This document shows, one piece after another, positions 4,908 to 42,136 of a stretch of 64,000 nucleotides of DNA. The translations under genes and the position numbers were made by a program. The first letter of the stretch is position 1; each line of letters opens with the position of its first letter. The stretch comes from Sphingomonas cremea. GTDB lineage: Bacteria > Pseudomonadota > Alphaproteobacteria > Sphingomonadales > Sphingomonadaceae. Under the pieces are notes generated by a model. It did not search any database and was not told the DNA's origin. It worked only from the letters and a program-made list of their open reading frames with translations. The stretch lies in contig NZ_JAKFGM010000001.1 of the NCBI RefSeq assembly GCF_021502585.1, positions 248,001 through 312,000 on the forward strand, in the 5' to 3' direction.

Positions 4908-5687
4908 TCAGCGGCCGGTGAACTTCGCCGGCCGCTTCTCGAGGAATGCTGCAACCCCCTCGCGATAATCGTCAGTGAAACCCAGGCGGCGCATCTCGTC
5001 GCGCTGCAGGTCAAGCTCCTCGTCAAGGCTACGCGACCAGCTGGTCCGGACGATCTGCTTGATCGCCGCAAGTCCGAGTGGGGGGAGCGCGGCGAGCTTC
5101 TCCGCCAGTGAATCGACTTCGCTGTCGAGCCATTCGCCGCCCACGCATTTCCAGATGAGCCCCCAATCGGCGGCCCGTTGCGCCTCCAGCGGTTCTCCAG
5201 TGAGCGCGAGGCCAAGTGCCCGCGCCTGGCCGACGAGGCGGGGGAGGTGCCAGCTGCCGCCGCTGTCAGGGATCAGGCCAAGGGCGGAAAAGCTCTGGAT
5301 AAACTTGGCGGTGCTGGCGGCGACAACGATGTCGCATGCCAGAGCGATGTTGGCACCTGCGCCCGCGGCGACGCCGTTCACCTTGGCGATCACTGGCTGG
5401 GGCAGGGCAGCAAGGGTTCGGATCAGCGGATTCCAGCTTTCCTCGACCGTCTCGCCAAGGTCGACTGCCTCCCCGGGCGCAACCGCGCGGTCGTTGAGAT
5501 CCTGTCCGGCGCAGAAGGCGCGGCCCGCGCCGGTCAGGATGACAACTCGGGCATCTCCGAGATTGGCCAAGGCCTCGCGCAGCTCGGCGTGCATTGCACG
5601 AGTGAAGCTGTTGAGACGGTCGGGGCGGTTTAGCGTAATGCGGGCGATGCCGTCGGAGATCGCCACTTCGATGGTTTCATAATCCAT
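4908..5687 (-). CDS. paaG: PaaG, 1,2-epoxyphenylacetyl-CoA isomerase
   Basis: Crotonase-fold enzyme that isomerises the ring epoxide to oxepin-CoA, the step between PaaABCE and PaaZ. The match to PaaG is close along its length: LNRPDRLNSFTRAMH near residue 20, GAGRAFCAGQDLND at 53-66, the oxyanion-hole block GVAAGAGAN at 105-113, and catalytic Asp141 in IPDSGG. The 259-residue length is normal. The frame continues upstream to 5927, but that part antisenses paaA, so ATG at 5687 is the start. It is divergent from paaA with a 57-base shared promoter region, in which I could not recognise a PaaR or PaaX operator. Confidence 0.93.
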   Translation of the reverse strand: MDYETIEVAISDGIARITLNRPDRLNSFTRAMHAELREALANLGDARVVILTGAGRAFCAGQDLNDRAVAPGEAVDLGETVEESWNPLIRTLAALPQPVIAKVNGVAAGAGANIALACDIVVAASTAKFIQSFSALGLIPDSGGSWHLPRLVGQARALGLALTGEPLEAQRAADWGLIWKCVGGEWLDSEVDSLAEKLAALPPLGLAAIKQIVRTSWSRSLDEELDLQRDEMRRLGFTDDYREGVAAFLEKRPAKFTGR

Positions 5688-5744: not shown

Positions 5745-6737
5745 ATGAGGACAATGTACACCACCGAACTCAACAAGAACGTCAAGCCGATCGAGGTTGC
5801 GGAGGACCCGGAGCTGGTTGCCGCCTTCGAAGCGCGGGTCGCAGCGGACGAATTCATCGAGCCCAAGGACTGGATGCCCGATGCCTACCGAAAGACGTTG
5901 GTTCGGCAAATTTCGCAGCATGCCCATAGCGAGATCGTCGGCATGTTGCCTGAGGGCAATTGGATCACGCGGGCCCCATCACTACGCCGAAAGGCGATCC
6001 TGCTGGCAAAGGTCCAGGACGAAGCGGGGCATGGCCTATATCTCTATTGCGCTGCCGAGACGCTTGGGACGAGCCGAGAGGAGATGATCGAGGCACTCCA
6101 CTCGGGGAAGGCCAAATATTCGACGATCTTCAACTATCCGACACTGACCTGGGCCGACATTGGTGCGATCGGCTGGCTCGTCGACGGTGCGGCGATCATG
6201 AACCAGGTGCCGCTACAACGCACCAGCTATGGCCCCTATGCCCGTGCCATGGTCCGGGTATGCAAGGAGGAAAGCTTCCACCAGCGCCAGGGCTATGAAA
6301 TCATGATCGCGCTGGCCAATGGCACGGCGGAGCAGAAGCGGATGGCGCAGGACGCTTTGAACCGCTGGTGGTGGCCGAGCCTGATGATGTTTGGCCCGCC
6401 GGACGACAATAGTCCTAACACCGAGCGATCGATGCGCTGGCGTATCAAGCGTGAGACCAATGACGAACTTCGCCAGAAATTCGTCGACATCACCGTACCG
6501 CAGGCCGACTTCCTCGGCCTTTCCGTTCCCGATCCGGAAGTGCAATGGAACGAAGCGAAGGGCGGTTATGATTTCGGCGAGATCGATTGGGAAGAATTTT
6601 ACGCAGTGGTCCGCGGTGAAGGCCCGGTCGCCAGGGAGCGGATGAAGGCCCGGATCGAGGCGTGGGAAGATGGCGCGTGGGTGCGCGATGCTGCCGCCGC
6701 GCACGAATTCAAACGGCGCCAGCGGGCTGCGGCCTGA
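5745..6737 (+). CDS. paaA: PaaA, phenylacetyl-CoA epoxidase catalytic subunit
   Basis: Catalytic diiron subunit of the multicomponent ring 1,2-epoxidase acting on phenylacetyl-CoA. The carboxylate-bridged iron ligands are seen in the four-helix core: an upstream Glu region, DEAGHG at about 92-97, and a second Glu/His set in [10 protein letters not shown] about 80 residues later. The length of 330 residues is typical. It is the first gene of an operon continuing through paaB, paaC, paaE, tyrB, E1 and E2. ATG at 5745 and ATG at 5754 are both possible starts; neither has ideal Shine-Dalgarno spacing. Confidence 0.95.
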
Positions 6738-6763
6738 GGCGACGGCATTTAGGGGAGACGCTA

Positions 6764-7051
6764 ATGTCCGGTCACGATTGGCCGCTCTGGGAAGTGTTTG
6801 TGCGCGCGAAGGGCGGGCTCAACCACCGTCATGTCGGAAGCGTTCATGCACCCGACGCCGAGCTGGCACTTCGCCATGCCCGCGACACTTACACTCGGCG
6901 GTTGGAGGGGGTGTCGCTTTGGGTCGTGCCGTCATCGTCGATCGTCGCGTCCGATCCGGCCGACGCCGGGCCCTTGTTCGAGCCGGCAGAGGATAAGATC
7001 TACCGTCACCCGACTTTCTACGACATTCCCGATGTCGTGAAGCACATCTGA
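6764..7051 (+). CDS. paaB: PaaB, phenylacetyl-CoA epoxidase structural subunit
   Basis: Small (95 residues) subunit that bridges PaaAC pairs in the epoxidase. The start is fixed by MSGHDWPLWEVFVR, typical of PaaB, with GGGGAG upstream of ATG 6764. The core AELALRHARDTYTRR is conserved in the family. Its stop overlaps the paaC start by one base, indicating translational coupling. Confidence 0.93.
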   Translation: MSGHDWPLWEVFVRAKGGLNHRHVGSVHAPDAELALRHARDTYTRRLEGVSLWVVPSSSIVASDPADAGPLFEPAEDKIYRHPTFYDIPDVVKHI

Positions 7052-7824
7052 TGCCAACGCTTCCTGCAAGTGAAGTGGATGTCGAGGAAAAAGTCGAACT
7101 GGCTTTTGTCGATTATTGCCAGCGCCTGGGAGACGATGCGCTGATCCTTGGCCAGCGGATTAGCGAATGGTGCGGCCATGCGCCGGTACTGGAAGTCGAC
7201 CTAAGTCTTGCCAATCTGGCGCTCGACCTGATCGGGCAGGGGACGAATTTCCTCGGTCTCGCCGGGGACGCCAACAAGCTGGCGTTTCATCGCGACGTTC
7301 TCGACTGGAAAAATTGCCTGCTGGTCGAGCAGCCAAATGGCGATTTCGCGCAAACGATCGCGCGGCAGATGCTGTTCTCGACCTGGCAGCACATGCTGTA
7401 CCAGCGACTGGCCAATTCGAGCGATGCGCGGATCGCGGGCGTCGCTGCCAAGGGCGTCAAGGAAGTGGCATACCACCGGGAACTGGCCGCCGATTGGGTA
7501 ATACGCCTGGGCGACGGTACCGAGGAGAGCGCTCGACGGATGGCGCAAGGCCTCGACTGGTGCTGGCGCTTCATTCCCGAGTTGTTCGAGGTCGATGAGG
7601 TGCTGGCCGGGCTCATCGAGCGCGGCATCGCCACCGATCCGCGCGAGTTTGAGGCCGAGTATCGCGCCGAGATCGATCGGGTACTGACCGAAGCAAAGCT
7701 GGATGCGCCGGCGGAGCAGCGGCCGATCCTTGGCGGTCGGCGCGGCCACCACAGCGAGCATCTCGGCCATCTGCTGGCGGTGATGCAATTCCTGCCCCGC
7801 ACCTATCCTGACGCGACCTGGTAA
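7051..7824 (+). CDS. paaC: PaaC, phenylacetyl-CoA epoxidase scaffold subunit
   Basis: 257-residue ferritin-like partner of PaaA. It folds like the catalytic subunit but does not carry the active diiron site. Characteristic blocks are LGQRISEWCGHAPVLE near residue 30, DLIGQGTNFLGLAG near 60 and EVAYHRELAADWV near 140. TGATG coupling with paaB at its start and TAATG coupling with paaE at its end leave no space for paaD, which normally lies between paaC and paaE. Confidence 0.93.
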   Translation: MPTLPASEVDVEEKVELAFVDYCQRLGDDALILGQRISEWCGHAPVLEVDLSLANLALDLIGQGTNFLGLAGDANKLAFHRDVLDWKNCLLVEQPNGDFAQTIARQMLFSTWQHMLYQRLANSSDARIAGVAAKGVKEVAYHRELAADWVIRLGDGTEESARRMAQGLDWCWRFIPELFEVDEVLAGLIERGIATDPREFEAEYRAEIDRVLTEAKLDAPAEQRPILGGRRGHHSEHLGHLLAVMQFLPRTYPDATW

Positions 7825-8897
7825 TGGCTGAGCATTTCTACCCGCTCAGGGTCGCGGAGATCGTGCCTGAGACCGAAGAAGCCTATTCGATCCGGTTCGA
7901 AGTGCCGGAAGAGCTGAAAGACGCCTTTCAGTTCAAGGCGGGGCAGCATCTGACGCTTCGGACGGAGCTTGGCGGCGAAGAGGTGCGGCGCAACTATTCG
8001 CTTTGCACCGCCCCGGCCGACGAGGAGCTAATGGTTACCGTCAAGCGGATCGCGGGCGGTGTATTTTCGAACTGGGTCGGCGAGCAGTTGAAAGCCGGCG
8101 ATACGCTGGACGTCATGACGCCTCACGGGTCGTTTACGACCGAATTCGATCCGAGCGCGAAGCGGCATTATGTGGGCTTCGCCGGCGGTTCCGGCATTAC
8201 GCCGGTAATCTCCTTGGTCCGAACGGCACTGAGCGTCGAGCCGGGCAGTCGCTTCACCCTATTCTACGGTAACCGCGACTCCAATTCGGTCATCTTCCTG
8301 GAGGCGCTGGCGGCGCTGAAGGACAGCTATCTCGGCCGGTTCGAGCTCTATCATTTCCTCAGCGATGAAGAGGGTGATGTCGAGCTGTTCAACGGTATGC
8401 TCGACCGTGAGACGTGTGACGAGGCGATCGAGCATCTGATTGACCAGCCCGAGGAGGTGGACGCCTGGTTTATCTGCGGCCCCGGACCGATGATGGACGC
8501 CGCCGAGGCAGCGTTGCTTGATCGGGGCGTAGCGAAAGAGCGGATTCACATCGAGCGTTTCACCGCTGGCCGGCCTTCTGCAGCGCTCGCAGCGCAAATG
8601 GCGGCGTTGCAGGAGGAAGCGGCTGGGCTAACGCTCAGCGTCACGCTCGACGGACGAACGCGCAAGGTCGAATTTTCAGCCGCCAACATCCTCGATAGTG
8701 CGCGAGAGGCCGGGATGCCCGCGCCGTTCGCGTGCAAAGCGGGAGTTTGCGCGACCTGCCGAGCCAAGGTTACCAAGGGAAAGGTCGAGATGGCCGCGCG
8801 CTATGGACTGACCGACGAGGAAATTGCGGCGGGATATGTGCTGACGTGCCAGTCGGTGCCTGTCGGAGAGGGGGTGGCGGTGGACTATGACGCGTGA
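7824..8897 (+). CDS. paaE: PaaE, phenylacetyl-CoA epoxidase reductase
   Basis: NADPH-dependent flavo-iron-sulfur reductase (also called PaaK) passing electrons to the PaaA diiron centre. Domains in order are an FAD-binding ferredoxin-reductase barrel with RRNYSLCT near residue 55, an NAD(P)-binding domain with GFAGGSGITPVISL near 120, and a C-terminal plant-type [2Fe-2S] ferredoxin domain. The ferredoxin ligands are CKAGVCATC around residues 303-311 plus a later Cys in LTCQS. The length of 357 residues matches the family. It starts inside the paaC stop codon and its own stop overlaps the GTG proposed for tyrB. Confidence 0.94.
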   Translation: MAEHFYPLRVAEIVPETEEAYSIRFEVPEELKDAFQFKAGQHLTLRTELGGEEVRRNYSLCTAPADEELMVTVKRIAGGVFSNWVGEQLKAGDTLDVMTPHGSFTTEFDPSAKRHYVGFAGGSGITPVISLVRTALSVEPGSRFTLFYGNRDSNSVIFLEALAALKDSYLGRFELYHFLSDEEGDVELFNGMLDRETCDEAIEHLIDQPEEVDAWFICGPGPMMDAAEAALLDRGVAKERIHIERFTAGRPSAALAAQMAALQEEAAGLTLSVTLDGRTRKVEFSAANILDSAREAGMPAPFACKAGVCATCRAKVTKGKVEMAARYGLTDEEIAAGYVLTCQSVPVGEGVAVDYDA

Positions 8898-10144
8898 CTG
8901 TCGCATCCCGATCCGCTAGTTCCCAAACCATGCTGGACCAGCCGACCATGACCGGGCCAAACGGGGGCGCCCAATTTTTCGATGCTCTTGGCGATGTGCA
9001 GAGCGACTCGCTGCTCGCGCTGATCGCCATGGCCAATGCCGATCCTCGGCCGGACAAGATCGACGTCGGTGTCGGTGTTTATCGTGATGGCGTCGGCAAT
9101 ACGCCGATCCTCCGAGCGGTGAAAACTGCCGAAAAACGGTTGTGGGAGACCCAGAAAAGCAAAAGCTACATCGGCGGGTTCGGCGACAAGCGCTACACCG
9201 AGCTACTGAGACCGATCGTTCTTGGCCGCCATGCGAATGACGACCGCATCGCCGGACTTCATACTCCGGGCGGCTGCGGTGCACTTAGCCTTGGCTTTAA
9301 ACTGATCGCTACGGCGCATCCCAACGCCAAGGTCATGGTCGGAACCCCGACCTGGCCCAACCATATTCCGGTCGTTCAGGCCGCTGATCTGAATATCGCC
9401 GAATATGGCTACTACGACCGGCTTGAGAGGCGAATCCGCTTCGACGAGATGATGGCCGCGTTGAATGGTGCCAACAAAGGCGACGTGGTGTTGCTCCACG
9501 GATGTTGCCACAATCCAACCGGCGCCGACCTCAGCGACAGCCACTGGTCCGACGTAGTCGAAGCGGTCTCGAGGCGCGGTCTGATCCCATTCGTCGACAT
9601 TGCCTATCAGGGATTGGGCCGCGGTTTCGCCGAGGATGCTGCGGGGCTGCACTTGTTACTCGACGCGTGCGACGAAGTGATCATCTCCCAAAGCTGCGAC
9701 AAGAATTTCGGCGTCTATCGCGACCGGGTCGGCTCGCTGTTCATCAAGACGGCGGCCGCGGACCAGAGCAAGCGGGCAATGGGTCATGTCGTCCAAATCG
9801 CGCGCGAGATGTGGTCGATGCCGCCCGATCATGGAGCGGCAGCGGTACGAATTGTTCTCGAGGACGAGGCGCTTCGGGCTGATTGGAATGCGGAGGTCGG
9901 TGAGATGCGCGACCGGATCAACAGGATCCGCAGCCAGATCGCCGGAGCCGACCCGCGACTGGCCTATATCGGCGGGCAGTTTGGAATGTTTTCGATGCTT
10001 CCAGTGACCGTCGAGCAGGTACGCGAACTGCGCGAGCGTCACGCCATCTACATGGCCGACAGCGGCCGTTTTAACGTAATCGGCATGGCCGATGCCGCGG
10101 TCGACCGGTTCATTACCGCCATTGTCGAGGCGATGAATGGCTGA
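8894..10144 (+). CDS. tyrB: Aromatic amino acid aminotransferase (TyrB/AspC family)
   Basis: PLP-dependent fold-type I aminotransferase of the aspartate/aromatic group, expected to convert phenylalanine or tyrosine to the arylpyruvate. PLP lysine is in SCDKNFGVYRDRVG near residue 270, and the block HGCCHNPTGAD lies near 205. The GTG at 8894 overlaps the paaE stop by four bases, giving 416 residues. ATG at 8930 or 8948 would give a more usual 399-404 residues, and no strong Shine-Dalgarno decides between them. Its place between the epoxidase reductase and a 2-oxo-acid dehydrogenase argues for a catabolic role in aromatic amino acid breakdown. Confidence 0.87.
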   Translation: MTVASRSASSQTMLDQPTMTGPNGGAQFFDALGDVQSDSLLALIAMANADPRPDKIDVGVGVYRDGVGNTPILRAVKTAEKRLWETQKSKSYIGGFGDKRYTELLRPIVLGRHANDDRIAGLHTPGGCGALSLGFKLIATAHPNAKVMVGTPTWPNHIPVVQAADLNIAEYGYYDRLERRIRFDEMMAALNGANKGDVVLLHGCCHNPTGADLSDSHWSDVVEAVSRRGLIPFVDIAYQGLGRGFAEDAAGLHLLLDACDEVIISQSCDKNFGVYRDRVGSLFIKTAAADQSKRAMGHVVQIAREMWSMPPDHGAAAVRIVLEDEALRADWNAEVGEMRDRINRIRSQIAGADPRLAYIGGQFGMFSMLPVTVEQVRELRERHAIYMADSGRFNVIGMADAAVDRFITAIVEAMNG

Positions 10145-12182
10145 CGCTGCCGCAGAGGTAGACTTTAGGCCCAAGGCAGGAATTGATTGGGCGGAGGTCG
10201 CGCGACTGGTGACGACCAGCCGGGCCATGGACGAGCTGGAGGAAACCCGGCTCGTTCCCGAAAAAAAGGTACTCTACCAGTTTTCGGCGCGCGGTCACGA
10301 TATGGCGCAGGTCATACTTGGCATGCACTTGCGGGACGGCGATGCGGCGTGCGGCTATTATCGTTCGCGGCCGATGCTCCTGGCACTGGGTGTCCCGTTG
10401 GCTGACGCCCTGGGGTCGGGAATGGGTCGCGCGGGCGGTTATTCGGACGGACGCGATATCGGTGTCGTGTTCAATTACCCCAATCCGGGCGGCGCCCATG
10501 CGCTTCCCATGTGCGGAGGCGTGGGTGCGCAATATGCCCCGGCTGCGGGCTGGGCTCAGGCCATCACCTACAAGGCGCAGGTCCTGGGCGATCGGGATGA
10601 TGGCGCCCTCGCTGTGGTGCTGGGAGGCGATGCAAGCTGCGCCACCGGCGGATTTTGGTCCGCGCTAACAATTGCGACTACACAATCTTTGCCATTGCTG
10701 TTTTACATCGAAGACAATGGCTACGGCATCTCGGTCCCGTCCGATTACCAGACACCGGGCCGTGACATCGCCGCGAACCTCGCCAGCTTCAAGAACCTCA
10801 CCATCTGGAATGGCGATGGCACCGACCCGGCCGAGGCAGAGCGGCTGATCGGGGAAGCCGTCGCCCATGTCCGCGGACGCAAGAGTCCGGCGCTGATCCG
10901 CCTTACCGTGCCGAGGCTTGAGGGACATAGTTTCCAGGATACCCAGACCTACAAGTCTGAAGAGACCGTCAAGGCCGAATGGGCCCGCGACCCCCTACCC
11001 AAATTGAAGGCGTTCGCGGCGGAGCTCGACTGGGGGCTGATCGAAGCTTCAGTTGAGCAGGAGGTCGAGGCCGCGCGAGCCGAGGCCGAGGCGCGGGGCA
11101 TTTCGTCGCCCGACCGAGTGACGGAGCACATCTTCTTCGAAGGTGAGGCGAGCAGGATCGGTGGCGGTGCCGGCCTCAGTCTTGATGGCACGACCGACCA
11201 GCCTCAGCCCGAGGGCCAGCGGATCAATATGGTCACTGCCATCCGCCGTGTGCTCGACCAGGAGTTGGAAGCTAATCCGAAGGTGCTGGTGTTTGGCGAG
11301 GATGTGGGCCCCAAGGGCGGCGTCCATGCGGTGACTCTTGGCCTTCAGGAGAAATACGGCGTGGAGCGAGTGTTTGATACTTCGCTCAACGAGGAAGGCA
11401 TTGTCGGCCGCGCTGTTGGCATGGCGTTGGCGGGCCTGATGCCAGTGCCGGAAATCCAGTTCCGAAAATATGCCGAACCTGCGACTGAGCAGATCAACGA
11501 TTGCGGAACCATGCGGTGGCGCACCGCCAATCGCTTCTCGGCACCGATGGTGCTTCGCATCCCTGGCGGCTTCTTCAAATGCGGCGATCCCTGGCACAGC
11601 CAGACGAACGAGGTGCAGTTCGTCCACAACCCGGGCTGGAAGGTGGCAGTGCCTTCAAACGCCGAAGATGCGGTTGGGTTGTTGCGTGCCAGCTTGCGAG
11701 GCAGCGATCCGGTGATCTTTTTCGAGCATCGCGCCATGCTCGACGATGCCTGGGCGCGGCGGCCCTGGCCGGGCGACAAGTTTGTGCTGCCATTCGGCGA
11801 GGCGAGGAAGACCCGCGAAGGCGATAGGATCACCATCGTCACCTGGGGCGCGATGGTGCCGCGCTGCGAGGCGGCGGCGGAAGGCATCAGCGCCGATGTC
11901 ATCGACCTGCGGACGCTGATGCCGTGGGATCGCGAAGCAGTGCTCGAAAGTGTACGCCGGACTCGTCGCTGCCTGATCGTTCATGAGGACCTTCGCACTG
12001 GCGGCTTCGGCGCGGAGATCGCCGCTGTGGTTGCCGATGAGGCCTTCCTCGATCTCGACGCGCCCGTAGCTCGCGTTACCATGCCGGACGTGCCGAGCCC
12101 GCATCATCCGAAATTGCTCGAATGGGCGGTGCCTAGCGTGGAAAAGATCCGCGCTGAAATCGACCGGCTGGTGGGGTTCTAG
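10137..12182 (+). CDS. 2-oxo-acid dehydrogenase E1, alpha and beta fused (candidate arylpyruvate dehydrogenase)
   Basis: Thiamine-diphosphate enzyme that decarboxylates a 2-oxo acid and acylates the E2 lipoyl group. At 681 residues it joins two chains normally encoded by separate genes. Residues about 15-330 are E1-alpha-like, with the ThDP/Mg block GGDASCATGGFW near 161 and IEDNGYGISVP. Residues about 360-681 are E1-beta-like, starting at NMVTAIRRVL, with FGEDVGPKGG and FDTSLNEEGIVGRAVG. The usual beta-chain GHGG-x-YHSQ block reads FKCGDPWHSQ, which may reflect an unusual substrate. It overlaps tyrB by eight bases, and E2 follows with no gap. A branched-chain substrate is the default family call; the operon favours phenylpyruvate. 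Confidence 0.88.
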   Translation: MADAAAEVDFRPKAGIDWAEVARLVTTSRAMDELEETRLVPEKKVLYQFSARGHDMAQVILGMHLRDGDAACGYYRSRPMLLALGVPLADALGSGMGRAGGYSDGRDIGVVFNYPNPGGAHALPMCGGVGAQYAPAAGWAQAITYKAQVLGDRDDGALAVVLGGDASCATGGFWSALTIATTQSLPLLFYIEDNGYGISVPSDYQTPGRDIAANLASFKNLTIWNGDGTDPAEAERLIGEAVAHVRGRKSPALIRLTVPRLEGHSFQDTQTYKSEETVKAEWARDPLPKLKAFAAELDWGLIEASVEQEVEAARAEAEARGISSPDRVTEHIFFEGEASRIGGGAGLSLDGTTDQPQPEGQRINMVTAIRRVLDQELEANPKVLVFGEDVGPKGGVHAVTLGLQEKYGVERVFDTSLNEEGIVGRAVGMALAGLMPVPEIQFRKYAEPATEQINDCGTMRWRTANRFSAPMVLRIPGGFFKCGDPWHSQTNEVQFVHNPGWKVAVPSNAEDAVGLLRASLRGSDPVIFFEHRAMLDDAWARRPWPGDKFVLPFGEARKTREGDRITIVTWGAMVPRCEAAAEGISADVIDLRTLMPWDREAVLESVRRTRRCLIVHEDLRTGGFGAEIAAVVADEAFLDLDAPVARVTMPDVPSPHHPKLLEWAVPSVEKIRAEIDRLVGF

Positions 12183-13385
12183 ATGATCGAGGTTCGTGTT
12201 CCCGACGAGCAGGAGGGCACCAAGGCGGTCGTCCGCGCCTGGCTCAAGCAGATCGGCGACGCGGTGGCGGAGAATGATCCGCTGGTCGAGCTCGAGACCG
12301 ACAAGGTGACGCAGGAGGTGCCCTCGCCTGCGGCGGGGGTGTTGGTGGAGATTTTGCTCGACACGGACGATGAAGCCGAGCCCGGGGCGCTGTTGGCGCG
12401 AATTTCGTCAGACGCCAGCCACGTTCGTCCTGAGCGGAGGCCGGAGGCCGAAGTCGAAGGGCGCGCGGCACAGGCCTCAGAGGAGCGCGCTTCGACTTCG
12501 CTCAGGACGAACGAGGTTAGCGAATTACGGCTTTCGCCGTCGGTGAAGCGCGCGCTCTCGCAGCACAACATCGATCCTTCGCGCATCCAGGGCACCGGCC
12601 GCGCCGGCCGCATTACTCGCGATGATGTTGACCGGGCGGTAGCCACATCGTCCGCGATCAGCGTTAGAGAGCCCACAACAGCGCAACCGCGCCACTTCGC
12701 GGGCGGCGATATCCCGCATGACCGGATGCGGCTCAAGATCGCAGAGAATATGGTTCGGGCGGTCGCCGAAGCACCACATGTCACTGCGTTGTTCGAGGCC
12801 GATTTCTTGGCGATCACGGCGCACAAAGCGGCCATGGCGGCCAAGGGCGTCAAGCTCAGCTACACTGCTTACTTGGTCAAGGCCGCCGCCGAGGCGATGG
12901 CTATCGCTCCAGCGATAAACGGGCGCTGGGAAAAGGATCGGATCGCGGTTTCGTCGACGATCAACGTCGGCATCGGGACCGCGTTGGGCGAAAAGGGCCT
13001 GGTCGTGCCGGTGGTCAAGGACGCCGGGTCGCTTAGCCTGGAGGAAGTCGGCCGCAAACTTGATGACCTGACCAGCCGCGCCCGCTCGGGAAATCTTTCT
13101 GCTGCCGACGTGTCGGGCGGAAGCTTCACAATCTCCAATCACGGCGTGTCGGGCAGCTTGCTCGCCGCGCCGATTATCCTCCACGCCGGCCAGGCAGCCA
13201 TCCTCGGTGTCGGCAAGCTGGAGAAGCGGGTCGTGGTGCGGGAAGTGAACGGTCAGGACGCGATCCTCATCCGACCAATGGCCTACGTCACGCTGACCAT
13301 CGACCATCGCGTGGTCGACGGGCATCAAACCAACGCCTGGCTGACCCGCTTCGTCGAAGCGCTCGAAAGCTGGCCTTCCGCTTGA
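12183..13385 (+). CDS. 2-oxo-acid dehydrogenase E2, dihydrolipoyl acyltransferase
   Basis: Core component transferring the acyl group from lipoamide to CoA; with the preceding E1 it would release an acyl-CoA such as phenylacetyl-CoA. It has a single lipoyl domain at residues 1-78 with lipoylated Lys41 in ETDKVTQEV, and a linker at 79-116. The E3-binding domain spans about 117-153, with LSPSVKRAL and GRITRDDV. The catalytic domain follows, ending in the active-site motif DHRVVDG near residue 370. The linker is partly made of an inverted-repeat DNA element described separately. No E3 gene is in the window, so E3 is probably shared with other complexes. It ends back to back with the next gene, leaving no intergenic base. 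Confidence 0.92.
   Translation: MIEVRVPDEQEGTKAVVRAWLKQIGDAVAENDPLVELETDKVTQEVPSPAAGVLVEILLDTDDEAEPGALLARISSDASHVRPERRPEAEVEGRAAQASEERASTSLRTNEVSELRLSPSVKRALSQHNIDPSRIQGTGRAGRITRDDVDRAVATSSAISVREPTTAQPRHFAGGDIPHDRMRLKIAENMVRAVAEAPHVTALFEADFLAITAHKAAMAAKGVKLSYTAYLVKAAAEAMAIAPAINGRWEKDRIAVSSTINVGIGTALGEKGLVVPVVKDAGSLSLEEVGRKLDDLTSRARSGNLSAADVSGGSFTISNHGVSGSLLAAPIILHAGQAAILGVGKLEKRVVVREVNGQDAILIRPMAYVTLTIDHRVVDGHQTNAWLTRFVEALESWPSA
12423..12512. repeat. In-frame palindromic element inside the E2 linker
   Basis: A 90-bp imperfect inverted repeat, exactly 30 codons, encoding residues 81-110 of E2. The left arm is GTTCGTCCTGAGC, a 13-base interruption, then CGAAGTCGAAGGGCGCGC. The right arm is GCGCGCTTCGACTTCG followed by CTCAGGACGAAC. 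The arms are complementary apart from the interruption and a few bases. It lies between the lipoyl and E3-binding domains, where extra residues are tolerated. The arm sequences resemble dispersed palindromes I recall from sphingomonad genomes; that family link is from memory and untested. Confidence 0.8.
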
Positions 13386-14516
13386 TCAGGCAGCCAGTTC
13401 GGCGCTGAGCGCTCTCATCAGTGCCTCTACATCGTTCGAGCTGTTGTAGAGGTGGAGCGAGGCACGCAACCCAAGAAATCCTGACAGCTCGACCACGCGA
13501 ATATAGACCTTATGCCGCATCAGCAGGTTGCGGCGCAGGGCATGTACGTCGACCGAGTCCGGCAAGCAGAAGGCGAGATTGGCCGAAGTGAATGTGCCAT
13601 CGCGCGGCGATGGAATGCTTACCTGATTGAGCCCCGACAATGCGTCGTAAAGTTCGGCGCGCAGTTTCCGGTTGTGCGCTTCAATGCATTCCAATCCGAC
13701 GGCCTGGACATAATCGATTGCCGCCCCAAGCCCTATCATCCCGGCTATGTTGGCGATGCCAGTCGAATCGGAGTTCGGGCGGCGGCCAGCGGATAGGGGC
13801 AATGCATCGAGTGCGCCGGCCAAGTCTTCGCTGAGATAAAGCAGGCCCGTGCCTTTGGGTCCGAGGAGCCATTTATGGCCACTTGCGGCATAGGCGTGAC
13901 AGCCGATCGCCTTGACATCGACTGGCATCGCGCCCGGCCCCTGGGCACCGTCGACGATCGTCCAGCAGCCATGCTCGCGGGCACGGCGGCATAGTTCCGC
14001 TGCTGGAAGCCTGACTCCGGTCGTGAACAATATGTGTGAGAAAGACACGACGCGGGTGCGGGGGCCTATCGCGTCGGCGAAGCGCTCGACGACCGCGACC
14101 GGATCGCTTTCATCCGGTGCGATTGGCACCACATCTACCTGCACCCCAAACCGCCGCGCTACCCAGTCCCAGCAGAGCCGGCCGCCGGGATGCTCATGGT
14201 CGGTTGTCAGGATTCGGTCGCCGTGTGACAGCTTGAGCCCCTGGGCAATCAGGAACATTCCCTGAGTGGTGCTGGTCGTGAGGATGATATCATCGGTAAT
14301 GCAGCCCAACAGGCCGGACGCCTTGGCGCGTACCTTTTCGAGTTCGCCTAAGCCCGCGCCATAGGTCTCTCGAACCGGATTGGCTTCCACCTGCACCATG
14401 GCGGCAACTGTCGCATCGAACACCGGGCGAGGTGTGGCACCGACGCCGCCGGTTTGCAGGTGGACGATACCGGGCGCGAGCATAATGTCGTCCGAGGGGA
14501 TGAGGCCGACAGTCAT
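13386..14516 (-). CDS. Class V aminotransferase (isopenicillin-N-epimerase / cysteine-desulfurase-like)
   Basis: PLP-dependent fold-type I enzyme of 376 residues. The PLP lysine is in SGHKWLLGPKG, and the cofactor-binding block TTSTTQGMFLIAQGL lies near residue 80. DGAQGPGAMPVDV matches the class V Asp/Gln pair. No catalytic-loop Cys typical of IscS or SufS is obvious, so it is more likely an aminotransferase, lyase or epimerase than a desulfurase; substrate is unknown. It lies 32 bases downstream of the formate dehydrogenase gene on the same strand. ATG at 14516 has only a weak ribosome-binding site. Confidence 0.83.
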   Translation of the reverse strand: MTVGLIPSDDIMLAPGIVHLQTGGVGATPRPVFDATVAAMVQVEANPVRETYGAGLGELEKVRAKASGLLGCITDDIILTTSTTQGMFLIAQGLKLSHGDRILTTDHEHPGGRLCWDWVARRFGVQVDVVPIAPDESDPVAVVERFADAIGPRTRVVSFSHILFTTGVRLPAAELCRRAREHGCWTIVDGAQGPGAMPVDVKAIGCHAYAASGHKWLLGPKGTGLLYLSEDLAGALDALPLSAGRRPNSDSTGIANIAGMIGLGAAIDYVQAVGLECIEAHNRKLRAELYDALSGLNQVSIPSPRDGTFTSANLAFCLPDSVDVHALRRNLLMRHKVYIRVVELSGFLGLRASLHLYNSSNDVEALMRALSAELAA

Positions 14517-14548
14517 GCGACTATGAACGCTTTGCGTAATTCCAAGGT

Positions 14549-15751
14549 TCAGTGCGTCTTGAAGAGCGCGGCTTCCTCTGATCCGCCTGTAGCATCGCCC
14601 GCACTGTAGCTATGCGCGCCGGTGCCGGCGAGGTGGCCTCCCTGGACAATCAGATACTCGTCGCGGATCGGCCGACCTTCGAAGAAACATTCGAGGATTT
14701 CGCGCGTGCCCGCCGCATAGCGCGCTTGTGCCGACAGGCTGGTGCCCGAGATATGGGGAGTCATGCCTTCATGCGGCATGGTTCGCCATGGATGGTCGCG
14801 CGAAGCGGGCTGGGGGAACCAAACGTCCCCCGCATAACCTGCCAGCTGCCCGCTTTCGAGCGCGGCGACGACTGCGTCGCGGTCGACGATCTTTCCGCGC
14901 GCGGTATTCACCAGATAGGCGCCGCGTTTCATCCTGGCGATCATTGACGCGTCGAACAGATTCTCGGTTTCGGGGTGAAGCGGGCAATTGATGGTGACCA
15001 CGTCGCACATGCCGATCATGTCCTCGACGCTGTCGTGCCAGGTCACGCCCAGCTCCCGCTCGACATCTTCGGGCAGGCGATAGCGGTCGAAATAATGGAG
15101 GTGCATGTCGAACGGCTTGAGGCGCCGAAGCACGGCGCTACCGATCCGTCCCGCAGCAACGGTTCCAACATGCATCCCCTCGACATCGTATGATCGTGCG
15201 GCGCAGTCGGCGATGTTCCAACCGCCTTTGCGAACCCAGTCGTGGGATGGAAGATAATTGCGCACCAAACTGAGGATCATCATCACCACATGCTCGGAGA
15301 CGCTGATCGAATTGCAGTAGGTGACTTCGGCGACAGTTATGCCGCGGTCGATTGCCGCCTGAAGGTCGACGTGATCAGAGCCGATGCCGGCCGTGAGTGC
15401 TAGCTTCAGATTCTTCGCCTTGGCGATGCGCTCGGCGGTCAGGTAGGCCGGCCAGAAGGGCTGTGAGATGACCACGTCCGCATCGACCAGCTCGCGTTCG
15501 AACTGGCTATCCGGACCATCCTTGTCTGACGTCACGACCAACGTATGGCCATTGCTTTCCAAATATTTGCGCAGGCCAAGTTCGCCCGATACGCAGCCAA
15601 GTAGGTCGCCTGGACGGAAGTCGATCGCGCTCGGGGTCGGCAGGGTGGTACCATCCGGGTAGCGGTCCAGTTTGGGCAGATCGTCGCGGGGATAGGATCG
15701 CGGCATGCCGTCGATCGGATCGTCGTAAAGGACACAAAGGATCTTCGCCAT
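14549..15751 (-). CDS. fdh: NAD-dependent formate dehydrogenase
   Basis: Soluble metal-free D-2-hydroxyacid dehydrogenase-family enzyme oxidising formate to CO2 with reduction of NAD. Close resemblance to Pseudomonas sp. 101 FDH: substrate-binding Asn147 in TYCNSIS, Arg285 in TARGKIVD and catalytic His333 in TPHISG. The nucleotide motif is GTVAAGRIG, followed by Asp222 in FDRYR, which sets NAD rather than NADP preference. The 400-residue length is typical. ATG at 15751 has AAAGGA about eight bases upstream; the longer open frame to 15871 lacks such support. It could supply NADH from formate during nitrate respiration, although it also precedes an aminotransferase gene. Confidence 0.94.
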   Translation of the reverse strand: MAKILCVLYDDPIDGMPRSYPRDDLPKLDRYPDGTTLPTPSAIDFRPGDLLGCVSGELGLRKYLESNGHTLVVTSDKDGPDSQFERELVDADVVISQPFWPAYLTAERIAKAKNLKLALTAGIGSDHVDLQAAIDRGITVAEVTYCNSISVSEHVVMMILSLVRNYLPSHDWVRKGGWNIADCAARSYDVEGMHVGTVAAGRIGSAVLRRLKPFDMHLHYFDRYRLPEDVERELGVTWHDSVEDMIGMCDVVTINCPLHPETENLFDASMIARMKRGAYLVNTARGKIVDRDAVVAALESGQLAGYAGDVWFPQPASRDHPWRTMPHEGMTPHISGTSLSAQARYAAGTREILECFFEGRPIRDEYLIVQGGHLAGTGAHSYSAGDATGGSEEAALFKTH

Positions 15752-15905
15752 TGTCGATTCCTTTCGCCAAGAGGAGCCGCTTCTTGGCCAATTTCCGACA
15801 AGAGTCGAGGAGATGCCGCACCCAACATCAGATTGATCGGCACTTGGATCATTGGGAAATTTCGGGCGCAATGCTCAGATGATTGTCGGGTTTGCGCCCA
15901 AAGCT

Positions 15906-15979: not shown

Positions 15980-16014
15980 AATCAGCGCCGCGCGACTGTG
16001 TGAGGGTGCGAGCC

Positions 16015-17241
16015 ATGGAGAACATGATACCGACCCGCGGTGAGCAAATGGCGGCCCTGCGACGCGCTAGTATGGCCGCCGCGCCACCCATCCTCAGGGG
16101 AGGCTTCAGGCCATTCTTTCTCGGCGGTGCGGTGTGGGCGGTCGTCGCACTGGCGCTTTGGTTGTGCGTCCTCGCTGGGCAAATCACGATCCCTACTGCT
16201 TTTGATGCCTTGGCCTGGCACCGCCATGAAATGCTGTTCGGCTTCGTGGGTGCGGTGATTGCTGGGTTCCTTTTGACAGCCATTCCCAACTGGACGGGGC
16301 GGCTGCCGATTGCAGGCGCTCCTTTGGCAAGCCTGTTCGGCCTGTGGCTTGCCGGGCGCCAGGCCGTTCTATTTTCTGCCGCGCTTGGGCCAGCAGTGGC
16401 CGGTCTGATTGACGTTGGCTTCTATCTGGTGCTGGCAGGAGTGGCGGCGCGCGAAGTCATCGAGGCCAACAACCGCAATGTGCCGATCGTCGGGATGGTC
16501 CTGCTGTTTGGGATAGCCAACGGGCTCGATCATTTCGCGGCGGCCGGCATTCTCATCGACCCGGCGCTTCCCTGGCAGATGGCAGTGGCGCTTGTCACGC
16601 TGCTGATCTCGTTGATCGGCGGAAGGATCGTTCCGTCCTTCACCAGGAACTGGCTCGCCAAACGCGGTGACACGCAGGGGCTGCCGGGCCAGCCGAGCAA
16701 GTTAGATCTCGCGGCAATCGGTCTGACCGCGCTTGCGCTTCTCGCGTGGATTGCGGCTCCGTCCGGCTGGCTTCCGGCTGCGCTCCTAACCATCGCATCA
16801 GCCGCGCAGTTGACGAGGCTAGCTAGGTGGAAGGGTTGGAAGACGGTTCGAAATCCGCTCGTCCTGATCTTGCACATCGGCTACGCATGGGTGCCGATTG
16901 GACTCGCCCTGTTGGCCGCAGCCCAGCTTGGAGCGCACTTGCCTCAATCCGCGGCGGTACATGCGCTGACGGCCGGTGCCATGGGCACGATGATTCTGGC
17001 AGTGATGACCCGGGCCAGCCTAGGCCATACGGGGCACGAGCTGCGAGCCGGGCCAGCCACCTCCGTTATCTACTTGCTCGTTACGGTTGGCGCGGTGCTG
17101 CGCGTTGCGGCCCCGCTGAGTGCAGTTGATTATCGGACGGGTATGGAAATCGCCGCTCTGTGCTGGCTCGGCAGCTTCCTGCTATTCATTTTCACCTATG
17201 GGCCAATCCTGTTCGCGCCTAGACTTGGCGAAAGGTCATAG
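16015..17241 (+). CDS. nnrS: NnrS family heme-copper membrane protein
   Basis: Polytopic inner-membrane protein of the NnrS family, associated with nitric oxide and denitrification stress. It has 408 residues with about twelve hydrophobic segments. Family blocks are GGFRPFFLGG near residue 25, the His-containing WHRHEMLFGF near 70 and MTRASLGHTGHEL near 335; these histidines are candidate metal ligands. ATG at 16015 has GAGG nine bases upstream; GTG at 16000 and ATG at 16024 are alternatives. It heads the anaerobic gene group and has an FNR-like box before it. Molecular function of the family is protective and not fully defined. Confidence 0.9.
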   Translation: MENMIPTRGEQMAALRRASMAAAPPILRGGFRPFFLGGAVWAVVALALWLCVLAGQITIPTAFDALAWHRHEMLFGFVGAVIAGFLLTAIPNWTGRLPIAGAPLASLFGLWLAGRQAVLFSAALGPAVAGLIDVGFYLVLAGVAAREVIEANNRNVPIVGMVLLFGIANGLDHFAAAGILIDPALPWQMAVALVTLLISLIGGRIVPSFTRNWLAKRGDTQGLPGQPSKLDLAAIGLTALALLAWIAAPSGWLPAALLTIASAAQLTRLARWKGWKTVRNPLVLILHIGYAWVPIGLALLAAAQLGAHLPQSAAVHALTAGAMGTMILAVMTRASLGHTGHELRAGPATSVIYLLVTVGAVLRVAAPLSAVDYRTGMEIAALCWLGSFLLFIFTYGPILFAPRLGERS

Positions 17242-17327
17242 GCCGACCGGGTAGCGCGATGCGCTAGATCAATTCGTCGTGGCGCCGACTCGCTAATTTG
17301 CCTCTCGTTTTCACGGGGGAGGGATCG

Positions 17328-19547
17328 ATGGGCTTTGAAGTCGCGCTGGCCGAGGAAATCTGGACCGCCAAATATCGCTTTGCTCCGACCGATGGCGTGG
17401 TCGACCAAGACTTCCCCGCGACGGTTACTCGCGTTGCCGGCGCTATCGCCGAAGCCGAGGCGCTTGAAGCTCGCTCGACTTGGTTTGAACGCTTCCGAGA
17501 ATCGATGCTTGATTTCCGGTTCCTGCCTGCAGGGAGAGTGATAGCGGGGGCAGGCACTGCTCGATCGGTGACTTTGTTCAATTGCTTCGTGATGGGCACC
17601 GTCCCCGATAGCCTCGGCGGTATCTTCGATCACCTTCGCGAAGCCGCCCTGACCATGCAGCAAGGTGGTGGCGTCGGGATCGACTTTTCAACGATCCGAC
17701 CGAATGGCGCACCGGTCGAAGGAGTAGGCGCGGACGCCTCCGGCCCGCTGTCATTCATGGATTGCTGGGATTCGATGTGCCGGACTGTCCATTCCGCCGG
17801 CCAACGGCGCGGGGCCATGATGGGATGCCTGACGATCGATCATCCCGATATCGAGGCGTTCATCGACGCCAAGCGGGATTCGCAGCGTCTCAGGAACTTC
17901 AACCTGTCTGTCCTGGTCAGCGATGCATTCATGGGCGCCTTGGGCACGGACGCTGATTGGCCGCTCCAATTCCAGGGTAAAGTTTATCGAACTGTAAGAG
18001 CACGCGATCTTTGGGAACGGCTCATGCGCTCAACCTATGATTGTGCAGAGCCCGGCGTGATCTTCATCGATCGGGTCAATGCCGCGAACAACCTTCGGCA
18101 TTGCGAGACGATCAGTGCCAGCAATCCTTGCGGGGAGCAGATGCTTCCTCCCTATGGCGCCTGCCTCTTGGGTTCGATCAATCTTGCCCGACTGGTTGAT
18201 CGGCCGTTCGAGGAAGGGGCCGAAATCAACGAGGAGGAACTGGCTGAGCTCACTGCCACCGCTGTGAGGATGCTCGACAATGTCATCGACATCTCACGCT
18301 ACCCCCTGCCGCAGCAGGAGGCAGAAGCGAAAGCCAAGCGTCGCATTGGCCTGGGCGTGACCGGCCTGGCCGATGCGTTGTTATTTTGCGGCAAGATCTA
18401 TGGCAGCAGCGAGGCGGTCGAGCAGACCCGGCGGTGGTTGGCTGTCATCAAGCGCGAAGCTTACCGGACGTCGGCCCGGTTGGCGGCCGAGAAGGGGCCA
18501 TTCCCGCTATACGATGAAATCATGATGGAGACGCCAAACCTACAGTGCCTTGACGACCAAACGCGGGCGCTGATCGCTGAGCACGGGCTCCGCAACGGCT
18601 GCCTGACCTCGATTGCGCCGACCGGCACGACGTCGCTGCTCGCGGGGAACGTCTCGTCCGGAATCGAGCCGGTGTTTGCTTACTCCTATGAGCGCCGTCG
18701 CCTCCAGCCGGACGGCAGCGCTCGGTTCGAGCCGGTCGAGGATTATGCGATGCATGTCTGGCGGCAGGTTAAGGGAGATGAGCCGCCACCGGCGGAGCTG
18801 TTCGTTAGCGCTCAGACCCTGAAACCATCCGATCACCTGGCGATGCAGGCCGCTGCTCAGGCCTTGGTCGACAGTTCGATTTCGAAGACCGTCAACTGCC
18901 CCGAAGACATTGCCTTCGACGAGTTCGCCGACATTTACGTCGAAGGATATCATCTGGGCTGCAAGGGGCTGACGACCTATCGCCCTAACGCGGTGACCGG
19001 ATCGGTGCTCAAGCTGTCGGCGACCGACGAGTCGACCAGGGAGGATATGGCCGAAGTCGAATTGGCCCCTCGAAGCGAAGCGCTGCACGGCACGACCTAC
19101 AAGCTAAAGTGGCCTGAAAGCGCGCATGCTGTTTACGTGACGATCAACGACATCGAATTCGAGGGTGATAGCCGGCCGTTTGAGATTTTCGTGAACTCCA
19201 AGAACATGGAGCACTATGCCTGGACGCTCGGCCTGACTCGCATGATTTCGGCGGTTTTCCGACGGGGCGGCGATGTCTCGTTCGTGCCTGAAGAGCTAAA
19301 GGCGGTGTTCGACCCAAGGGGCGGCGCATGGATGAAGGGTCGATATGTCCCGTCGCTGCTCGCGGCCATCGGCGAGGTGATCGAGCGCCATATCGGCGAA
19401 GCGGCAGTGGAAACCGGTCCCAGGGCGGACGCGCCGGTCGCCGCAGTTGGCGCGAAACCTTGCTGCCCCCGTTGCGGTGCGGCGGCCCTGATCCGGGTCG
19501 AGGGGTGCGACAAATGCCTTGAATGCGGCCATTCGAAGTGCGGCTGA
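17328..19547 (+). CDS. nrdJ: Class II (adenosylcobalamin-dependent) ribonucleotide reductase
   Basis: Reduces ribonucleotides without oxygen, using a cobalamin-derived radical. It has 739 residues; active-site features are the LFNCFVMG Cys near residue 90 and the NPCGEQMLPPYGACLLGS loop near 270. A C-terminal cysteine-rich tail (CCPRCG, CDKCLECGHSKCG) probably carries out disulfide exchange. GGAGG five bases before ATG 17328 fixes the start. It sits in the anaerobic block between nnrS and moaA. The 86-base leader is too short for a cobalamin riboswitch. An ATCAA half-site at 17268-17272 resembles half an FNR box but is unconvincing. Confidence 0.92.
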   Translation: MGFEVALAEEIWTAKYRFAPTDGVVDQDFPATVTRVAGAIAEAEALEARSTWFERFRESMLDFRFLPAGRVIAGAGTARSVTLFNCFVMGTVPDSLGGIFDHLREAALTMQQGGGVGIDFSTIRPNGAPVEGVGADASGPLSFMDCWDSMCRTVHSAGQRRGAMMGCLTIDHPDIEAFIDAKRDSQRLRNFNLSVLVSDAFMGALGTDADWPLQFQGKVYRTVRARDLWERLMRSTYDCAEPGVIFIDRVNAANNLRHCETISASNPCGEQMLPPYGACLLGSINLARLVDRPFEEGAEINEEELAELTATAVRMLDNVIDISRYPLPQQEAEAKAKRRIGLGVTGLADALLFCGKIYGSSEAVEQTRRWLAVIKREAYRTSARLAAEKGPFPLYDEIMMETPNLQCLDDQTRALIAEHGLRNGCLTSIAPTGTTSLLAGNVSSGIEPVFAYSYERRRLQPDGSARFEPVEDYAMHVWRQVKGDEPPPAELFVSAQTLKPSDHLAMQAAAQALVDSSISKTVNCPEDIAFDEFADIYVEGYHLGCKGLTTYRPNAVTGSVLKLSATDESTREDMAEVELAPRSEALHGTTYKLKWPESAHAVYVTINDIEFEGDSRPFEIFVNSKNMEHYAWTLGLTRMISAVFRRGGDVSFVPEELKAVFDPRGGAWMKGRYVPSLLAAIGEVIERHIGEAAVETGPRADAPVAAVGAKPCCPRCGAAALIRVEGCDKCLECGHSKCG

Positions 19548-19548
19548 C

Positions 19549-19562
19549 TTGATTCAGATCAC
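19549..19562. promoter_or_regulatory. FNR-like box upstream of moaA
   Basis: TTGAT-TCAG-ATCAC, nine of ten matches to TTGAT-N4-ATCAA, immediately after the nrdJ stop. Placing it at -41.5 predicts a transcript start near 19597, about 25 bases before the moaA ATG, a normal activating geometry. Confidence 0.72.
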
Positions 19563-19621
19563 GCGCAGGTCTTCAAGAGTGGCCTAGCCGAATCCTCGTT
19601 TGACGTCGGAGTCGAAGCGGG

Positions 19622-20632
19622 ATGGATGCAGTGACGGCCACCGTGCCTGGATCAATGGTCGACAGCTTCGGCCGCAGGATCGACTATGTCCGCATTTCGG
19701 TGACCGATCGGTGCAACCTGCGCTGCCGCTACTGCATGGCGGAGCATATGCAGTTCCTGCCCAAGCGCGACATCCTCACATTGGAGGAGATCGTCGAGCT
19801 AGGCGACATCTTCATCGCCCGCGGCGTCAGGCGGATCCGGCTGACCGGCGGCGAGCCGCTGGTCCGGCGCGGTGTAGGCGAGCTGTTCCGAGCGCTCGGC
19901 AGTCGCATCGGCCATGGCCTGGAAGAAGTGACGCTGACTACCAACGGCGTGCTGCTATCTCAGTTCGCCCCTCTTTTGGCTGATTCCGGCGTGCGCCGGG
20001 TCAACGTCAGCCTCGACAGCCGCCGCCCCGACCGCTTTGCCCACATCACCCGCGGCGGGGAGTTGGGCAGCGTGCTGAGGGGCGTCGCCGCGGCGCGGGA
20101 AGCTGGCCTTAAGGTCAAGATCAACATGGTCGCGCTGGCCGGGCTCAACGACGATGAGTTCGAGGACATGCTGCTATGGTGCAATGGCGAGGGGTTCGAT
20201 CTCACGCTGATCGAAACCATGCCGCTGGGCGAGGTCGAGGAAGACCGAACCTGCCACTACTTGGCGCTCGACACCGTCAGGCACGAGCTCGAGCAACGCT
20301 TCACCTTGGTTCCGTCGCTAAGCCGCACCGGCGGTCCGGCGCGCTATTATGAAGTATCGGGCTTGTCCGTGCGGCTCGGCATGATCACGCCGTTGAGCGC
20401 CAATTTCTGCGCAGGCTGCAATCGGATCCGGGTCGCCGCCACCGGTACGGTTTATGGGTGCCTGGGCCATGACCAGAAGGTCGAGCTTCGCGACGCCTTG
20501 CGCTCGGGTGGGGCGGGGCAGGTTGACGCCATGCTCGACCGGCTGCTGGCCGGCAAGCCGAAAGGGCATGACTTCCACATTGCGGCGCCACGGCCGGCGG
20601 TCGCACGTCACATGAGTGTCACCGGCGGTTAG
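19622..20632 (+). CDS. moaA: MoaA, GTP 3',8-cyclase
   Basis: Radical-SAM enzyme catalysing the first step of molybdenum cofactor synthesis together with MoaC. The N-terminal SAM cluster motif CNLRCRYCM is near residue 35. The second [4Fe-4S] set, CAGCNRIRV plus a Cys 14 residues later, is near 262-280. The terminal GG dipeptide needed for activity is present. The 336-residue length is normal. Its position directly before narK, away from the other moa genes, and its own FNR-like box tie it to nitrate reductase production. Confidence 0.94.
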   Translation: MDAVTATVPGSMVDSFGRRIDYVRISVTDRCNLRCRYCMAEHMQFLPKRDILTLEEIVELGDIFIARGVRRIRLTGGEPLVRRGVGELFRALGSRIGHGLEEVTLTTNGVLLSQFAPLLADSGVRRVNVSLDSRRPDRFAHITRGGELGSVLRGVAAAREAGLKVKINMVALAGLNDDEFEDMLLWCNGEGFDLTLIETMPLGEVEEDRTCHYLALDTVRHELEQRFTLVPSLSRTGGPARYYEVSGLSVRLGMITPLSANFCAGCNRIRVAATGTVYGCLGHDQKVELRDALRSGGAGQVDAMLDRLLAGKPKGHDFHIAAPRPAVARHMSVTGG

Positions 20633-20646
20633 GGGGGAGGGCGGAA

Positions 20647-20660
20647 ATGATCTTGATCAA
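20647..20660. promoter_or_regulatory. FNR-like box upstream of narK
   Basis: ATGAT-CTTG-ATCAA, nine of ten matches to the consensus. With the site at -41.5, transcription would begin near 20695, leaving a 28-base leader with AAGGA before the narK ATG. It is the most convincing control site for the whole nar operon. Confidence 0.78.
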
Positions 20661-20722
20661 AGCCCTGGTCGAACAGGTCGGCCAGATAGACCCAGCGAAA
20701 TGCATTTCGAAGGATCCATCCG

Positions 20723-41420: not shown

Positions 41421-41474
41421 AGTCATCTTCCCCAAAGGATGGGGCCGTCGGCGGGGGCGCCGACGGCAGGAGCA

Positions 41475-42020: not shown

Positions 42021-42136
42021 AGGGTCTCTCCTGCGCAGGCCGCTGGATGCTGCCCGCTCCATCAGAGATGCCACTTGTCCATTTCTGTGATAATCCAGTA
42101 ACTATACACTTCACTATTGCGGAAATCGGGATAATC

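Follow-up and report, generated by a model that had tools for sequence, protein, structure and literature searches.

A fused 2-oxo acid dehydrogenase E1 in the phenylacetyl-CoA epoxidase operon of Sphingomonas cremea, a candidate phenylpyruvate dehydrogenase

Main

Passages in published accounts of the paa pathway treat the phenylacetate ligase PaaK as its first enzyme (PMC13186573, PMC9493321). Phenylacetyl-coenzyme A (phenylacetyl-CoA) has also been described as arising from phenylpyruvate. In Streptomyces pristinaespiralis, PglB/PglC, an E1 resembling that of pyruvate dehydrogenase (PDH), is said in passages of two papers to turn phenylpyruvate into phenylacetyl-CoA during phenylglycine biosynthesis (PMC7089894, PMC10685826), and a review describes for Phaeobacter inhibens a route from phenylalanine through phenylpyruvate to phenylacetyl-CoA that bypasses phenylacetate, naming no enzyme in the passages concerned (PMC7497051). 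Here we analyse a 64,000-nucleotide stretch of the Sphingomonas cremea genome (the window; positions 248001-312000 of contig C1, NZ_JAKFGM010000001.1, in a genome of 2.55 Mb listed as 100% complete), in which the phenylacetyl-CoA epoxidase genes paaABCE share an operon with genes for an aromatic aminotransferase (TyrB), a dehydrogenase E1 whose alpha and beta parts are fused, and a dihydrolipoamide acyltransferase (E2). We propose, with a probability of roughly 80%, that the fused E1 and its E2 form a phenylpyruvate dehydrogenase that feeds phenylacetyl-CoA to the paa pathway, the substrate being deduced from genomic context, co-occurrence with paaA and the lack of alternative suppliers.

The proposed reaction, conversion of phenylpyruvate to phenylacetyl-CoA by a PDH-type E1, is the one ascribed to PglB/PglC. 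Judged by published descriptions rather than by sequence, however, PglB/PglC has separate alpha and beta subunits, lies in an antibiotic operon and is biosynthetic. As in the direct route described for P. inhibens, phenylpyruvate would be the intermediate and phenylacetate would be skipped; for that route an enzyme of the indolepyruvate:ferredoxin oxidoreductase type has reportedly been proposed. With the branched-chain 2-oxo acid dehydrogenase (BCKDH) complex the fusion shares the E1 alpha/beta fold, thiamine diphosphate chemistry and a lipoyl E2, but its E1 is in one piece, the residues near its active site are different and invariant in its family, and the genome keeps a BCKDH E1 pair of its own. 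PaaABCE, PaaG and PaaZ of the PaaK-dependent catabolon are all present; what would differ is the entry, by oxidative decarboxylation of phenylpyruvate instead of ATP-dependent ligation of phenylacetate.

The chemistry already has precedents; what appears to be new is the architecture, genomic place and breadth of the fused family. No title or abstract among those listed in our search of the open-access literature described this family. To that extent the original prediction, made from the window alone, that such an enzyme is not widely described in sphingomonads still stands; the family is not specific to sphingomonads, however, and PglB/PglC is a precedent for the chemistry. A 2026 survey of the paa pathway inspects the genes around PaaK, and in its main text 'aminotransferase' is absent and 'dehydrogenase' occurs twice (PMC13186573); because that survey is centred on PaaK, PaaK-less genomes would escape it. 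The word 'phenylpyruvate' is absent from the main text of a review of the pathway (PMC9493321). In public records the fused E1 is labelled 'transketolase C-terminal domain-containing protein' or 'pyruvate dehydrogenase'. If the proposal is right, a one-step entry by oxidative decarboxylation would explain PaaK-less paa clusters, predictions of which organisms use phenylacetate and which use phenylalanine would change, and this protein would gain a name and a test.

An operon of paaABCE, tyrB, fused E1 and E2

The genes paaA-B-C-E, tyrB, the fused E1 and E2 form one real run on the + strand (5745-13385), and the original prediction that they are a single operon is borne out by open reading frames (ORFs), family models and overlapping or abutting junctions. 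The run begins with paaA, encoding a subunit of phenylacetyl-CoA epoxidase (5745-6737; TIGR02156, 527.5 bits against a cut-off of 280), and continues through paaB (6758-7051, start set by the family match; TIGR02157, 139.2 against 85.45), paaC (7051-7824; TIGR02158, 265.1 against 133.35) and the reductase gene paaE (7824-8897; TIGR02160, 424.9 against 420.8) to a tyrB-like aromatic amino acid aminotransferase gene (8894-10144; NF006719, 468.7 against 377). The gene for the fused E1 follows (10137-12182; 681 aa), with PF00676 (E1_dh), PF02779 (Transket_pyr) and PF02780 (Transketolase_C) in a single frame that holds both the E1 alpha and the E1 beta domains, and the run closes with the E2 gene (12183-13385), whose lipoyl (PF00364), E3-binding (PF02817) and catalytic acyltransferase (PF00198) domains all score above cut-off. 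paaA and paaB are 20 bases apart, each following pair up to E1 overlaps (by 1, 1, 4 and 8 bases in turn), and E1 and E2 abut. The 4-base overlap of tyrB with paaE presupposes a GTG start codon; as the match to the family model opens only at residue 29, the start may lie further in and this overlap is uncertain. A scan for sigma-70 promoters and terminators gave sites no more numerous than in shuffled sequence.

On the - strand, paaG lies divergent from paaA (4908-5687, its start placed at residue 37 of a 295-aa reading; TIGR02280 equivalog, 369.4 bits against 345.15), and paaZ (1-1515) has its 3' end beyond the left edge of the window (TIGR02278 at G000:C1:247530-249515, 992.8 bits). The window's clade has no PaaD-like gene separating paaC from paaE, the one place inspected for it in S. 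cremea; many relatives carry there a gene of 155-192 aa, named PaaD from its position alone.

Sequence and structure of the fused E1

The fused E1 falls below all NCBIfam cut-offs for PDH E1 (229.8 against 321, 221.3 against 454, 117 against 411 and 104.7 against 394 bits). Its G164-D165...N194 motif, H264, E419 and H487 align with the PDH and BCKDH of the same genome; we take these to be the cofactor motif and the alpha His, beta Glu and beta His that serve as catalytic or cofactor residues. In an alignment of 45 fusion sequences G164, N194, H264, E419 and H487 are invariant, and position 165 is D or E. The block FKCGDPWHSQ occupies residues 480-489; in the same alignment K481-S488 never vary, and conservation at F480 and Q489 is 90% or higher. 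Three stretches set the fusion apart from the genome's own BCKDH: H397 replaces F in GGVF, RKYAEPA stands in place of ADYIYPG, and KCGDPW in place of IFGGQT. All of these residues are invariant among the 45 sequences except E447. It had been suggested from the window alone that the altered beta block might reflect an aromatic substrate; these changes are consistent with a different substrate but do not say which.

A predicted model of the E1 (predicted local distance difference test, pLDDT, 77.7; predicted template modelling score, pTM, 0.79) matches the fold of the E1-beta chains 1ols_B and 1um9_B. Around the beta block it is weak (pLDDT below 50 at 441-466 and 479-492), and for that reason we draw no claim about the pocket from it. 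A scan of the ten neighbouring genes, to which the search for E3 was confined, revealed no E3 gene. Among solved structures TyrB is closest to 1ay4, the aromatic amino acid aminotransferase of Paracoccus (E 2.8e-97), and by its family TyrB would convert phenylalanine into phenylpyruvate.

The fusion tracks paaA across genomes

To define the spread of the fusion, we searched 298 genomes of the taxonomic family at E<=1e-80 and obtained matches in 42. A single group of 29 is about 69-90% identical to the window protein (one member, G124, is truncated where its contig ends). The remaining 13 matches are distant: seven are near full length at 35-37% identity, five of them with an internal stop as if two adjacent genes had been matched, and six cover the beta half only, at 46-49%. 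paaA occurs in 32 of the 298 genomes and together with the fusion in 28 (Fisher p 6e-34), that is, in 28 of the 29 fusion genomes versus 4 of the 269 without it, although kinship is left in this test, as in those of adjacency below, and the strength is overstated accordingly. Fusion without paaA was seen only in G124, whose assembly is in 180 contigs, and paaA without fusion in G020, G071, G164 and G189. By genus, all 12 fusion genera (tallied by hand) fall within the 16 paaA genera among 96 (p 3e-12). For the control gene hmgA, which likewise belongs to aromatic amino acid catabolism and is present in 117 of the 298 genomes, the link was much weaker by a hand tally (19 of 32 paaA-positive versus 98 of 266 paaA-negative genomes).

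Among 385 genomes of the class, searched at E<=1e-150, four carry the fusion and 48 carry paaA; all four fusion genomes, one of which is the window's own, are paaA-positive. A wider scan of genome contigs gave at least 580 relatives, from which 80 loci were kept and 41 genomes tested for paaA; the 39 left untested were mostly sphingomonads or short contigs, and one of the 41 (G299) is identical in its coordinates to G081 of the family set. paaA was present in 39 of the 41. The two genomes without it are metagenome-assembled: an Oleiphilaceae bin with paaK running into the contig end, and a second bin whose contig ends shortly past the paaZ and paaG that stand beside the fusion. The co-occurrence of fusion and paaABCE anticipated by the original prediction is thus strong in each set. 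Relatives among the matches listed include Sphingomonas, Sphingomicrobium, Rhizobium, Sinorhizobium/Ensifer, Shinella, Bosea, Pseudomonas, Hyphomonadaceae, Acetobacteraceae and others, and the fused E1 is one conserved family that extends beyond sphingomonads to rhizobia and Pseudomonas.

The fusion was found in three arrangements: in a run with paaABCE, as in the window's clade; a few kilobases from paa, as in Hyphomonadaceae loci L182 and L184, which read E1, E2, tyrB, paaZ, paaG, paaABCDE; or elsewhere in the genome, as in Pseudomonas and at many Rhizobium loci. The DNA fetched around 29 of 70 fusion loci (10 kb at most on each side, or to the contig end) showed no paa gene, and paaA is present in 27 of the 29 genomes concerned, so the link holds without adjacency. 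Fusions lie on 92 plasmid records, 76 of them from Sinorhizobium and including pSymB of the laboratory strain Sinorhizobium meliloti 2011 (NC_020560.1, 27348-29423). Other strains of S. meliloti carry paaA on that same replicon. The distance from fusion to paaA is 42 kb in S. meliloti SM11 (NC_017326.1) and 2 kb in Rhizobium tropici CIAT 899 (NC_020062.1).

Two further plasmids were observed in passing. On pAK1 of Paracoccus sp. AK26 (L203) the fused E1 and E2 adjoin an aminotransferase, an aldehyde dehydrogenase and an FAD-binding oxidoreductase, and paaA is on the same plasmid about 167 kb from the fusion. The 68-kb plasmid NZ_CP026382.1 of Sphingopyxis sp. MG encodes at 41462-42523 the alpha half only (residues 1-345, 65.5% identity).

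Other enzymes in the S. cremea genome

A search of the S. cremea genome with E1_dh gave six places, including the fusion and two weak hits (24 and 21 bits). One is a PDH-type E1 (467 bits to TIGR03182, cut-off 394), and a 952-aa frame is taken, by its length, to be 2-oxoglutarate dehydrogenase. A branched-chain-type E1 alpha, with Pseudomonas putida 1qs0 as its best solved relative (E 4e-120), is adjoined by an E1-beta, after which comes, by our reading, a lipoyl-domain protein truncated where the locus ends. The genome thus has the second, ordinary branched-chain E1 pair whose existence the original prediction had raised, and branched-chain oxidation seems to be covered by it. The best match to PaaK in the genome reaches 27.4 bits against a cut-off of 646. 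For the indole/phenylpyruvate decarboxylase model TIGR03394, the genome gave no match at 1e-30 and none of 23 genomes scored above cut-off. hmgA is present. Among the genes tested, the fused E1/E2 alone could supply phenylacetyl-CoA.

Regulatory sequences

In many loci a regulator of the Lrp/AsnC type is divergent to the module (by Pfam, blast labels and annotation), and in others E1/E2 is adjoined by a protein of the TetR type that carries a TetR_C_24 domain and that we take to be PaaR. A site common to a separate E1 operon and to paaA/paaG was sought in eight genomes and found in G027. This 14-base palindrome, located in G027 before E1, paaA and paaG, was searched for in 120 loci and the window, allowing 2 mismatches at most, and gave 81 matches in 2.32 Mb versus 10 in pair-shuffled loci; the two locus sets share genomes and the hits are not all independent. 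Matches stand before paaA (26), paaG (7), E1 (6), E2 (4) and the TetR gene (4), with 34 near no labelled gene. Those before E1 are at most 55 bases from it, in six loci of five genomes, and at the same tolerance the palindrome is found ahead of the module in 5 of 78 named loci versus 2 of 712 control starts. In the genomes carrying it, the palindrome points to joint control of the E1 module and paa. Seven matches before tyrB with 3 mismatches were discounted, since they all have one sequence, which apparently belongs to a conserved part of the paaE end.

Proposed route and alternatives

The original prediction had E1/E2 take phenylpyruvate straight to phenylacetyl-CoA, and the association with paa and the separate branched-chain E1 support it, the substrate being deduced. 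In the route we propose, TyrB would transaminate phenylalanine to phenylpyruvate, which the fused E1 with thiamine diphosphate would decarboxylate, passing the phenylacetyl group to the lipoyl arm of its dedicated E2. The E2 would transfer this group to CoA, and a shared E3 would presumably reoxidise the lipoyl arm with NAD+. Phenylacetyl-CoA would then follow the known pathway, for which the genes are present, through epoxidation by PaaABCE, isomerisation by PaaG and ring opening by PaaZ. Compared with the sequence phenylpyruvate, phenylacetaldehyde, phenylacetate and PaaK, the NADH yield would be equal, no ATP would be spent and no aldehyde would be freed. In genomes without PaaK, that of the window included, the paa genes would serve phenylalanine and not external phenylacetate. 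More broadly, we think it probable, with somewhat less assurance than for the enzyme itself, that a widespread and unnamed aerobic arylpyruvate dehydrogenase provides a second, ATP-free gate to paa in Alphaproteobacteria and some Pseudomonas, and that paa without PaaK is a phenylalanine pathway rather than a phenylacetate pathway.

Several observations weigh against the proposal. Among the 29 family fusion genomes, PaaK scores above 600 bits in 13, is in pieces at contig ends in G277 and is absent from 15; in 44 further fusion genomes (the 41 of the wider scan and three of the class set, with G655 and G337 being one genome), PaaK was found at 1e-100 in 30 and not in 14. In the genomes with PaaK the fusion is not the sole entry and so does not replace PaaK in general: the earlier claim that the ligase is not needed is consistent with the lack of a PaaK match in the window's genome and 14 more family fusion genomes, but does not hold in general. 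Likewise, 44 of the 48 paaA-positive genomes of the class set have no fusion, which is thus one of several entries. In G189 paaA is present while fusion and PaaK are both missing; five ORFs examined near its paa genes (a luciferase-like monooxygenase, a Tad-like protein, an AraC-type regulator, a Rieske oxygenase and a 3-hydroxyacyl-CoA dehydrogenase) do not explain its supply of phenylacetyl-CoA. At the majority of the 41 wider loci tyrB is not near E1. Matches to TIGR03394 below its cut-off occur in 13 of the 23 genomes, and likewise in 13 of 14 control genomes, and a phenylacetate ligase of unrecognised type is a conceivable alternative supplier. Of the eight genomes searched for a site common to a separate E1 operon and paaA/paaG, seven gave none, and the window holds no copy of the palindrome at up to 2 mismatches.

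Other counts on PaaK favour the proposal. Of the 15 paaA-positive family genomes without PaaK, 14 carry the fusion; of the four paaA-positive family genomes without the fusion, the three other than G189 have PaaK. Fifteen control genomes having neither gene gave no PaaK match above 164 bits. In the family set the fusion and paa are neighbours in 14 of 15 fusion genomes without PaaK versus 5 of 14 with PaaK whole or in pieces (p 0.0017), among the other fusion genomes in 11 of 13 versus 11 of 28 (p 0.009), and in the two sets combined in 25 of 28 PaaK-less versus 16 of 42 PaaK-bearing genomes.

The alternative to which we give most weight, though we regard it as very improbable, is an arylpyruvate dehydrogenase acting mainly on indolepyruvate or 4-hydroxyphenylpyruvate to give indoleacetyl-CoA or 4-hydroxyphenylacetyl-CoA, with the paa link arising from shared amino acid catabolism. 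The aminotransferase family of TyrB accepts several aromatic amino acids, and the divergent regulators of many loci belong to Lrp/AsnC, often amino acid sensors. The association, however, is with paaABCE, whose substrate is phenylacetyl-CoA, and tyrosine has hmgA in the same genome.

About as improbable, in our estimate, is the reading of the fusion as another 2-oxo acid dehydrogenase of branched-chain or broad specificity, placed in the paa operon by chance. E1 enzymes of broad specificity exist. The alpha half of the fusion is closest among solved structures to the branched-chain E1 of Thermus thermophilus, a distant match (E 9e-26) that counts against our assignment, and matches P. putida 1qs0 at only E 4.6e-7; the beta half is nearest 1ik6, an archaeal E1-beta called pyruvate dehydrogenase, then the branched-chain E1-betas 1um9 (Thermus) and 2bp7 (Pseudomonas), and resembles PDH and BCKDH betas about equally. 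Yet the genome already has its separate branched-chain pair, a branched-chain enzyme has no reason to track paaA as the fusion does (28/29, 39/41 and 4/4), and the family-invariant residues near the active-site histidine are unlike those of the genome's own BCKDH and PDH. Least likely of all is that two catabolic modules with no metabolic link were gained together: both sets are patchy and lie on large plasmids in rhizobia, but their co-occurrence remains when they are unlinked, their arrangement depends on PaaK, the paaA palindrome precedes E1 in some genomes, and the modules have an obvious intermediate in common.

Surrounding genes

Downstream of the operon and convergent with it, the region 13386-15871 holds an NAD-dependent formate dehydrogenase (NF005750, 711.8 bits) and a class V aminotransferase-like protein, the gene next to the operon spanning 13386-14516. 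Read from translations, 16000-23455 encodes an NnrS-like membrane protein, a B12-type ribonucleotide reductase, a MoaA-like radical SAM protein and a 910-aa protein made of two nitrate/nitrite transporter-like halves, and may be a nitrate respiration island.

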